The notes under the pieces: generated by a model
What the model was told of the DNA's origin: nothing
Database searches by the model: none
Seen by the model: only the letters and a program-made list of their open reading frames with translations
Position numbers and translations under genes: made by a program
Part shown: positions 6,318 through 20,606 of the stretch, in pieces
How the letters are laid out: each line of letters begins with the position of its first letter
Numbering within the stretch: the first letter of the stretch is position 1
DNA from: Bacilli bacterium
GTDB taxonomy: Bacteria > Bacillota_I > Bacilli_A > RF39 > UBA660
Length of the DNA stretch: 33,778 nucleotides
Assembly (NCBI GenBank): GCA_022793235.1
Contig: JAAWCL010000009.1
Span: forward strand, 1-33,778
Reading direction: 5' to 3'

Positions 6318-6347
6318 GTAGTATATAGGCGAATTTTATTATACTAC
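6318..6347. repeat. Inverted repeat upstream of cassette C1
   Basis: GTAGTATA (6318-6325) and TATACTAC (6340-6347) form a perfect 8-bp inverted repeat with a 14-base loop, ending 13 bases before cassette C1. A related sequence precedes C4: both places have a TATA-TAAAGA-GTAGTATA string as the left arm. It could be a recombination or structural signal, or chance in AT-rich DNA. Confidence 0.45.
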
Positions 6348-6360
6348 ATAGGGTGTAAGA

Positions 6361-6519
6361 TTTTACGGTGATAGTACAGTTTTTATTGATGCTTTTAAAC
6401 CATGGGTTTCAAAGGGTGGCTCATGGTATTATGGAAGTCAAAATGGGGTTTTTTCATTTCATGTATATTATGGTTCTTTTATTTATGATCAAGGAAGTCG
6501 GTTGGGTAATATACTATAA
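6361..6519 (+). repeat. Variable-domain cassette C1
   Basis: First of five related cassettes. It begins TTTTACGGTGAT and has 44 codons before GGAAGTCGGTTGG at 6493. It ends with TAA at 6517-6519. The translated frame starts FYGDSTVF, carries W at 15, G at 19, 25, 29 and 38, F at 31 and GSRL at 45-48, and ends GNIL. The in-frame TAG at 6349 and the lack of ATG, GTG or TTG before the cassette mean that it cannot be translated as it stands. It resembles the C-terminal core of an FGE-like or C-type-lectin variable domain without the rest of the protein. C1 and C2 lie in tandem 239 bases apart. I read it as a silent donor segment; a decayed gene end is the alternative. Confidence 0.8.
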
Positions 6520-6572
6520 TATAATAGAATTTTAAATTACTAAAATATTGGTAATTGATGAGATATTATAGA
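6520..6572 (+). repeat. 3' flank element of cassette C1
   Basis: The bases after the C1 stop closely match those after the C2 stop (6765-6811). Both run through ATAATA, an AATTTAAATTA-type block, GGT(A/G)ATTGAT and TATT(A/G)TAGA. Here AATTAC and GTAATT can pair as a short stem. This shared non-coding tail suggests that the duplicated unit extends beyond the coding cassette. Confidence 0.55.
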
Positions 6573-6599
6573 CGAGATTGTTTAGGTAAAATTAAATGC

Positions 6600-6764
6600 T
6601 TTTACGGTGATTATTCTAACTTTGTTTTTCCAACAGGGTCTTGGGCCTATCATGGTTGTCAATGGTATGATGGTGTTTTTACAGGGGAGTTTGCTTTTTT
6701 GGGTAATATAGGTTTTGCACTTTATAAACATGGAAGTCGGTTGGCTTTTATTACTACAATATAA
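6600..6764 (+). repeat. Variable-domain cassette C2
   Basis: Second cassette, with the same ends as C1: TTTTACGGTGAT at 6600 and GGAAGTCGGTTGG at 6732, exactly 132 bases apart as in C1, C3 and C5. The reading frame gives FYGDYSNF, then SWAYHG, WYDG, TGEFAF and HGSRL, ending FITTI and TAA at 6762-6764. A TTG at 6555 and ATG at 6558 lie in frame upstream, allowing a 69-codon ORF. However, no ribosome site precedes them, and that leader lies in the 3' flank of C1, so translation is doubtful. The interior differs from C1 at most positions except the W/G/F framework. The ATA-rich tail resembles that of C1. Confidence 0.8.
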
Positions 6765-6811
6765 TAAAATTTAAATTATTATTTTTATGGTGATTGATAA
6801 GGTATTGTAGA
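6765..6811 (+). repeat. 3' flank element of cassette C2
   Basis: Homologous to the flank after C1. The possible stem is AATTAT with GTGATT, which keeps pairing through two G-U pairs where C1 has A-T or G-C pairs. It ends in TATTGTAGA at 6803-6811. Confidence 0.5.
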
Positions 6812-6877
6812 AATTTAATTCTTTTCTATTTAATTTTGGACAAATTTTGAAATGATTATAAGTCTTATTATTGGAAA

Positions 6878-10514: not shown

Positions 10515-10619
10515 TTTATATTGTTAATTTTTTCACTATTTTTTGATAGCTATAATTTAATAAATATAAAACCATATTTTTGTGTTTTATAATAAATTAT
10601 AGTTTTTTTTCTTTCGTAC

Positions 10620-10772
10620 TTTTACGGTGATTGGATAGGAAATGTTCGTCTTACTCAATCTTGGCCTTGTTATGGTGGTTATTTTAATGTTGGAATGTAT
10701 ACAGGGCTTTTTGCTTATGGTTCAGAACAAGGACTGATTCATACTTTTTTTGGAAGTCGGTTTCTTGTATAA
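10620..10772 (+). repeat. Variable-domain cassette C3
   Basis: Third cassette, alone between queA and the Nudix gene. TTTTACGGTGAT begins at 10620 and GGAAGTCGG at 10752, again exactly 132 bases later. The frame gives FYGDWIGN, SWPCYGG, YTGLFAYG and FFGSRFLV with TAA at 10770-10772. After GSR it departs from the others with TTTC instead of TTGG, and it is the shortest. Upstream in frame there is a TAA at 10593 and no normal start codon, so it is silent as it stands. TATTATAGA follows at 10822-10830, as after C1, C2 and C5. The rest of the 10515-10901 gap is featureless AT-rich DNA apart from the promoter of the next gene. Confidence 0.8.
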
Positions 10773-10873
10773 AACTATAATAAAATAAAAAACAAAATTG
10801 TTTTTAGAATAATAGTTTATTTATTATAGAGTTCTTTATCTTTTTTATATATTGTTTATTTGTGTAATAGTGC

Positions 10874-19831: not shown

Positions 19832-19937
19832 ATTTGCTCCTCTATTTCTTTAATTGAAATCAAAAAGAAGAAAAACTTTCAAGCATTCATTATAAGTTTT
19901 GGATTAGCTATTTTTTTGTTTCTTAGATATAATAAAG

Positions 19938-19990
19938 ATGTAGTATAGAATTTACAACTTTATTTTGATAAAGAAAACTTTCTACTACAT
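19938..19990. repeat. Inverted repeat upstream of cassette C4
   Basis: ATGTAGTA (19938-19945) and TACTACAT (19983-19990) form a perfect 8-bp inverted repeat, with GAA/TTC continuing after a two-base bulge. It ends 9 bases before C4. The left arm and its upstream bases (TATAATAAAGATGTAGTATA) resemble those before C1. Confidence 0.45.
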
Positions 19991-19999
19991 ATGATGCAC

Positions 20000-20164
20000 T
20001 TTTACGGTGATTATGAAAACTTTATTGGTTTATCTATGCCTTGGGCATACCATGGTGCTCATTGGCATGATGGAGTTCGTACTGGTGGTTTTTCTTTTAC
20101 TTGTACAAGTGGTGATCGTAACAATTTATATCGTGGAAGTCGGTTGGTATTGTATTTGATGTAA
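20000..20164 (+). repeat. Variable-domain cassette C4
   Basis: Fourth cassette. TTTTACGGTGAT begins at 20000 and GGAAGTCGGTTGG at 20135, 135 bases later, so it has one codon more than the others. The frame reads FYGDYENF, PWAYHGAHWHDG, TGGFSF, then a longer loop and YRGSRLVLYLM with TAA at 20162-20164. Two in-frame ATG codons lie at 19991 and 19994, three codons before FYGD, giving a possible 57-residue ORF. No ribosome site is apparent, and the ATGs sit just after the inverted repeat. C4 and C5 are the second cassette pair, between comEC and dnaI. No TATTRTAGA follows within 60 bases, unlike the other copies; a variant occurs at 20289. Confidence 0.8.
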
Positions 20165-20318
20165 TAGAAAAGTAGTAATGTGATAACTAAAACTTTATTC
20201 AGTAAAGTAGGTTTTTAATACTATATAATTGTAACTTTTTTAGTGATAGGGTGTTCTTTCTTTTATAATATTCATGAAAAATTCTAAATATTATAGTGAT
20301 TCATAATTTGTGGTATTT

Positions 20319-20477
20319 TTTTACGGTGATAATACGAATTTTGGTCATTCTACTTTTTCGTGGAGTTATCATGGAGGTTATTGGCTAGACGGAGTTATTG
20401 CTGGAGAATTTGCATTTTATCGTGATTGGGGTCCTGCTTATCCAAGTTCTGGAAGTCGGTTGGAATATCTACTATAA
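20319..20477 (+). repeat. Variable-domain cassette C5
   Basis: Fifth cassette. TTTTACGGTGAT begins at 20319 and GGAAGTCGGTTGG at 20451 (132 bases). The frame gives FYGDNTNFGH, FSWSYHGGYW, LDGV, AGEFAF and SSGSRLEYLL with TAA at 20475-20477. A GTG at 20310 is in frame three codons upstream without a ribosome site, and a TAA sits just before it. Its internal sequence is the closest to the textbook W-x-x-x-G-G ... G-x-F pattern of FGE-like variable domains. TATTATAGA follows at 20522-20530 as after C1, C2 and C3. It lies about 180 bases before dnaI. Confidence 0.8.
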
Positions 20478-20606
20478 TATTAAATTATTTTAGTTTTATG
20501 ATAAGAATAGAAAAAATAAAATATTATAGAAATTAATCCCTTAAAATATTTTATATAGAGTTAAGTTGCTTGTTTTATTTTGTTTCAAATTTTATTTGAA
20601 TCTTGT

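Follow-up and report, generated by a model that had tools for sequence, protein, structure and literature searches.

In vls and pilS, start-less variable donors lie between constant borders. DGRs, with that of Bordetella phage BPP-1 as their prototype, comprise an RT, bAvd, a template repeat (TR) and a C-type-lectin-fold protein with a C-terminal VR, and changes occur at TR adenines only. In phage DGRs a hairpin/cruciform lies downstream of the target VR; it is GC-rich, has 7-10 bp and a 4-nt loop, and its structure outweighs its sequence (PMC3240598). A survey found one TR in 79.9% of multi-VR DGRs and named cases with two and six (PMC6642488), and TR variants are on record for Treponema denticola (PMC4891356).

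The cassettes described here lie in a window (the whole 33,778-nucleotide stretch that was analysed) whose genome, G000 below, is a 1.6-Mb MAG in 279 contigs, 91.45% complete. Like the vls and pilS donors, they are start-less variable units between constant borders; unlike them, they bear what is probably a template-RNA hairpin and are likely to belong to an RT-based lineage, and their expression site was not found in the incomplete assembly. Close relatives possess the parts of the prototype DGR, with changes at TR adenines only. The lineage differs from the prototype in that 5-18 different TRs stand in tandem, or approximately 30-55 template units are spread genome-wide, most units being closed by a covarying hairpin; in G000 the templates are also adenine-poor, and RT and target were not assembled. 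As in phage DGRs (PMC3240598), the inverted repeat lies close downstream of a repeat, but here that repeat is the TR, and the stem is AT-rich, with 9 bp enclosing about 39 nt and an inner stem. DGRs with multiple TRs and numerous remote VRs have likewise been recorded elsewhere (PMC6642488, PMC4891356); in the literature that we searched, which covered few subscription journals, we found no description of hairpin-separated or tandem multi-template TR arrays.

Cassettes and hairpin tails in the window's genome

The window contains the following features.

6318 to 6347, + strand: leader inverted repeat before cassette C1, GTAGTATA (6318-6325) with TATACTAC (6340-6347); a homologous leader stands at the first cassettes of other arrays
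6361 to 6503, + strand: template-type cassette C1, from TTTTACGGTGAT to GGAAGTCGGTT
6512 to 6573, + strand: C1 tail hairpin, outer stem CTATAATAT (6514-6522) with ATATTATAG (6563-6571), inner stem 6535-6543 with 6548-6556; TATTATAGA at 6564
6600 to 6742, + strand: template-type cassette C2
6752 to 6812, + strand: C2 tail hairpin, outer stem CTACAATAT (6754-6762) with GTATTGTAG (6802-6810), a compensated variant; TATTGTAGA at 6803
10550 to 10602, + strand: like-shaped hairpin upstream of C3, CTATAATTT.../...AAATTATAG; weak, E 0.04-0.07
10620 to 10762, + strand: template-type cassette C3
10773 to 10831, + strand: C3 tail hairpin, TATTATAGA at 10822; E 3.5e-4, with this copy in the training set
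19940 to 19988, + strand: leader inverted repeat before C4, GTAGTA (19940-19945) with TACTAC (19983-19988); homologous leaders in other arrays
20000 to 20145, + strand: template-type cassette C4, common tail absent
20172 to 20224, + strand: leader-type hairpin between C4 and C5, GTAGTA.../...ATACTAT
20319 to 20461, + strand: template-type cassette C5
20470 to 20531, + strand: C5 tail hairpin, CTATAATATT (20472-20481) with AATATTATAG (20520-20529); TATTATAGA at 20522; E 0.007 in a model trained without it

Across G000 there are about 54 such cassettes, single or arrayed, spaced mostly 216-250 bp apart (units of approximately 230 bp), with cores mostly 144 nt long that run from TTTTACGGTGAT to GGAAGTCGGTT(G); the 50 exact occurrences of GGAAGTCGGTT in the genome all lie inside orphan cassette units. 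One reading frame was open in 52 of the 54 cassettes; the two alternative frames on that strand were open in 10 and 0, and shuffled interiors in 6%. An in-frame stop interrupts the remaining two cores, one of which is also frameshifted. The 54 share no consistent start codon and none is preceded by a long open frame; lacking N-termini, the cassettes are fragments of a C-terminal domain. Third codon positions were 96-99% identical in the borders and only about 50% identical in the interior; the near-invariance in the borders indicates that these are constrained as nucleic acid. A Pfam scan of single cassettes gave no match. When the exact-border pattern was searched in 291 genomes of the family together with the genome_contigs and viral_contigs sets, G000 alone matched, and the borders are therefore species-specific. 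The possibility that the cassettes are independent small genes was ruled out by the lack of start codons and of a conserved upstream frame.

The first cassettes of the arrays on G000 contigs C16, C42, C177, C5, C37, C83 and C243 (loci L045, L040, L038, L039, L043, L042 and L041) lie directly behind members of a repeated surface-protein gene family, with a Big_2 domain and a hypervariable C-terminal region ending in VRAVIDI(N/S)K, whose copies are often at contig ends; this family is itself likely to be hypervariable. Another hairpin, of leader type (GTAGTAT..ACTTTAT..ATAAAGT..ATACTAC) and closely preceded by TATAAT, was seen in the window (19928-19988 and 20172-20224) and at L035, L041 and L045, and upstream of first cassettes it is nearly identical between arrays. 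In the window, TATAAT occupies 19928-19933, just upstream of the C4 leader repeat. Promoter and terminator scans of two window regions gave no signal above shuffles; it is thus conservation that points to a leader promoter.

A reading of the window from its letters alone (the sequence-only reading) had noticed that the stretches behind C1 and C2 are homologous and that TATTRTAGA recurs behind C1, C2, C3 and C5. Both observations held: the motif is at 6564, 6803, 10822 and 20522, about 39-50 nt past in-frame stops. The AATTAC/GTAATT stem that it had proposed can form in both C1 and C2; this, however, is the inner stem, and the main conserved outer stem had been overlooked. TATT(A/G)TAGA forms the 3' side of a 9-bp hairpin; the 5' side, CTA(T/C)AATAT, starts about 10 nt past the cassette border and often overlaps the stop codon. 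The A/G variation of the motif is compensated in the opposite arm (CTATAATA/TATTATAG, CTACAATA/TATTGTAG), the pair at this position being UA in 31 copies, CG in 6 and AU in 1. Among 53 tails there were 34 double-changed pairs against 6.6 expected, with a maximum of 15 in 10,000 permutations, so that the covariation proposed as a check was indeed present. When the two arms were located separately by consensus and then permuted between copies, pairing fell from 92.7% of positions to 83.6% (maximum 87.2% in 10,000 permutations). In alignment A2, which includes G002 sequence besides the tails of the window's genome, 96.8% of cells were paired and double changes occurred at 7 of the 9 pairs, a result that 0 of 500 shuffles equalled; sliding the partner by one base reduced pairing to 24-28%.

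The motif was also far too frequent behind cassettes to be a common intergenic word. The window has 10 copies of TATTRTAGA against 2.7 expected, and on 16 contigs of its genome the density was 7.7 per kb in the 30-90 nt behind cassettes and 0.065 per kb elsewhere, a difference of approximately 118 times; a chance origin was ruled out by these two measures. The exact motif follows 25 of the 54 cassettes, and a compensated variant follows most others. A covariance model trained without the C1, C2 and C5 tails, but with that of C3 in its training set, placed its four highest-ranking sites in the window at 6752-6812, 6512-6573, 10773-10831 and 20470-20531. With model R2, built solely from G000 tails and excluding G002 sequence, the C1 tail scored 47.1 bits (E 2e-5, that copy left out) and the C2 tail 52 bits (E 4e-6). 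Behind C4 (20000-20145) the common tail is missing, and the hairpin that stands there (20172-20224) is of another kind. The suggestion that the tail ends sharply at TATTRTAGA was not borne out: AATTTAATTC-like similarity runs past the motif, which is therefore no sharp unit end. The reading of the repeated unit as a coding cassette joined to a non-coding, structured tail is supported, and the tail covaries.

DGRs of relatives and their template arrays

In related gut Bacilli the same module of about 48 aa forms the variable C-terminus of C-type-lectin-fold proteins that are diversified by a DGR with RT and Avd; in genomes of the same family it ends membrane-anchored proteins of about 500-650 aa, in many copies. 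G002, of the same genus, has a locus in the order variable protein (VP), TR, Avd and RT, with Avd and RVT_1 over the cut-off, and in the adjacent VR 18 of the 28 TR adenines are changed, against 0 of 82 other bases. This TR is followed by the hairpin ACTATAATATAATAATTG...AAAATATTAT (ACTATAATAT...ATATTAT). Over the whole G002 genome, model R2, from which G002 sequence had been excluded, gave its top rank to the site 3' of this TR (36.7 bits, E 0.05), a match that is persuasive by its position and not by its score. Directly behind their TRs, G018 has ACTAAAATTT...AAATTTTAGA and G028 has ACTAAAATGT...ATATTTTAGA. The G000 units are thus flanked by a hairpin like that found 3' of genuine TRs in G002, G018, G028 and the array loci described below.

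In the pooled best VR/TR pairs of relatives, 113 of 232 adenines were changed and 22 of 720 other bases, 19 of these 22 coming from one older pair. G011 showed a weak adenine asymmetry between TR and VR and no clean recent pair. Its template units, about 30 in number, are scattered, and every one has a separate 5' leader and a 3' end resembling a terminator; beside the G011 RT, the interval from target gene to Avd holds no TR. L085 (G011:C45) holds, within one short stretch, a template unit and a partial target gene; in the latter, the 3' end of the VR continues into TCGTTCCGCCAAG, an arrangement shared with the templates but not with most G011 targets. G002, G028 and G327 each have at least 40 module matches, mostly within full-length target-type genes, and are in this respect large remote-target DGRs.

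The model of the G002 target, built with an alignment of relatives, had a mean pLDDT of 71.6. Because the Foldseek TM-score of the full 612-aa model was low, probably owing to flexible parts, we compared structures by VIA-align Z. The nearest structure was the DGR variable protein TaqVP (Z 16.4), and Mtd stood further down but among the best (Z 9.4); on this model the G002 protein is a C-type-lectin-fold variable protein with a C-terminal VR. For the N-terminal part of the model, TasA and pilins gave a Z of about 7, a resemblance that may reflect a common arrangement only.

A search with the RT of this lineage gave 17 loci. In several of these, tandem and differing TRs accompany the RT: 13 at L237, 11 at L229, approximately 10 at L225 and at L224, 5 at L227 and 3 at L226; the 9.6-kb L237 contig carries 18 template-like units. 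The RTs of these array loci are intact, with YMDD, and most of the array TRs are followed by a CTATGATNN/NNATCATAG-type hairpin, with compensated variants. Over the whole lineage, the variable inner four pairs of the stem matched in 93% of cells, compared with 72% after permutation (maximum 81%). The L237 VR differed from the third listed TR of its array at 7 of 18 adenines and 0 of 85 other bases, whereas the next best listed TR had 10 non-adenine mismatches; similarly, the VRs of L227 and L226 each matched one array TR, with 18 of 30 adenines and 0 of 78 others changed in the former and 4 of 14 adenines and 0 of 85 others in the latter. As these VRs trace to specific array TRs, we concluded that array templates are in use. 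Fifteen equal-score matches to the RT query, in 477-aa frames, were also seen on G059:C1 and probably represent a group II intron family.

Since the same hairpin lies 3' of genuine TRs in relatives, we take the tail to be the 3' structure of a template RNA. From the hairpin at genuine TRs, the TR arrays beside RTs and the matches of VRs to array TRs, we consider it probable that the window cassettes are template repeats of a DGR lineage of gut Bacilli in which templates have been multiplied into arrays.

Missing DGR parts and the exchange of cores

No DGR-type RT was found in G000 by RVT_1 searches or with the G002 RT, and no Avd, which was over the cut-off in G002, G011, G018 and G028. The incomplete assembly has no full-length gene with the GGAAGTCGGTT border, so no VR/TR pair of its own was seen there; its sole full-length module homologue, C138, lacks the template border. 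Two Phage_integrase genes are present. In relatives, RT, Avd and target adjoin one another, and a single missing locus would therefore explain all three absences. Such loci often lie on short contigs (9 of 17 RT loci on contigs below 10 kb), which makes loss during assembly or binning plausible. Asn (AAY) codons make up 5% of the G000 templates, compared with 15-36% in most TRs of relatives, so that the G000 templates are VR-like in content. Codon endings in G000, examined for traces of earlier adenine mutagenesis, gave an NNY fraction of 0.665 against 0.688 expected from the residues, showing no signal beyond amino-acid choice. Adenine-poor templates also occur beside intact RTs, at L224 and L226.

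In ten pairs of G000 units with tails at least 80% alike, core similarity was 0.615, compared with a background of 0.623. Conversely, the sole near-identical pair of cores (93%), C16:1092 (L045) and C25:22455 (L034), has unrelated tails. These results indicated that cores are exchanged or rewritten between borders while the tails stay, and the borders that delimit the exchange are TTTTACGGTGAT and GGAAGTCGGTT at the core ends, not the tail. One copy of the near-identical pair has an in-frame TAG.

Core exchange without tails is also what silent cassettes for RecA-type gene conversion would display, serving as DNA donors for one expressed surface gene in the manner of vls or pilS, without reverse transcription and with the hairpins as terminators or recombination hot spots. 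The 54 units without a consistent start, their open and diverse cores between invariant borders, the adenine-poor templates and the RT not found in G000 fit such donors as well. We nevertheless regard this explanation as unlikely, given that the tail corresponds by homology, both in position and in structure, to the region 3' of real TRs next to the RT and Avd of relatives, that those relatives use array templates with adenine-only changes, and that an expressed acceptor with these borders is itself absent from the (incomplete) G000 assembly.

The units might instead be relics of a former multi-template DGR, decaying after the species lost its RT. Decay would erase open frames, invariant borders and compensated stems alike, yet 52 of 54 frames are open, the borders persist at 96-98% identity and the stems are kept by compensatory changes, despite core identity of about 62%; the absence of RT, Avd and acceptor from the assembly, and the lone full-length homologue without a border, agree with relics, but relatives' RT loci lie so often on short contigs that assembly or binning loss is plausible. 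Even with the in-frame stops in 2 of the 54 cores and the frameshift in one of these, we consider relics quite improbable.

Integron-like mobile gene cassettes, the tail being an attC-type recombination site as the sequence-only reading had proposed from the repeated unit of cassette and hairpin tail, would account for the arrays but are hardly credible, because the units are gene fragments without start codons rather than complete genes, cores and tails are not inherited together, exchange is delimited at the core ends, the stem arms CTATAATAT/ATATTATAG have no GTTRRRY-type core, and the same hairpin marks the TRs of DGRs.

Proposed working of the template arrays

For the multi-template DGR, we propose that a leader or promoter would yield an RNA carrying one or more template cores with hairpins between them, and that the hairpin at each 3' end would flag the template for RT-Avd, as a priming or recognition structure and/or as a processing site between array units. 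The RT would then copy one template into cDNA, with adenines, where present, being mutated, and the cDNA would replace the variable 3' end of the gene for a surface-anchored C-type-lectin-fold protein by way of the constant borders. With many differing templates, diversity would come from template choice plus adenine mutagenesis. The acceptor gene for the G000 templates would end in TTTTAYGGTGAT...GGAAGTCGGTT.

The hairpin would act in RT-Avd recognition, in priming or in the cutting of array transcripts; templates of an array would presumably be transcribed together, and the adenine-poor templates of the window would still be used. DGR activity in G000 itself is presumed for a 91%-complete MAG from which RT, Avd and matching target are absent and whose templates are adenine-poor. 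There, variation may come mainly from the choice of template and not from adenine mutagenesis. A stronger version, which we hold possible but on balance doubtful, is that the G000 DGR works as RT-based cassette switching, in which dozens of prewritten adenine-poor templates are written into a surface gene and are themselves overwritten by cDNA, the tail being kept and the core changed, so that diversity is stored as a library.

DGRs have usually been described with one and rarely with a few TRs; many-template arrays in which targets can be traced to their templates would add template choice to the ways in which they diversify. Through compensatory mutation of the hairpin, the role of template-RNA structure can be tested, and the hairpin provides a handle for template genes that lie far from an RT and are invisible to RT-centred surveys. 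A multi-template lineage of this kind would link DGRs to silent-cassette antigenic variation.
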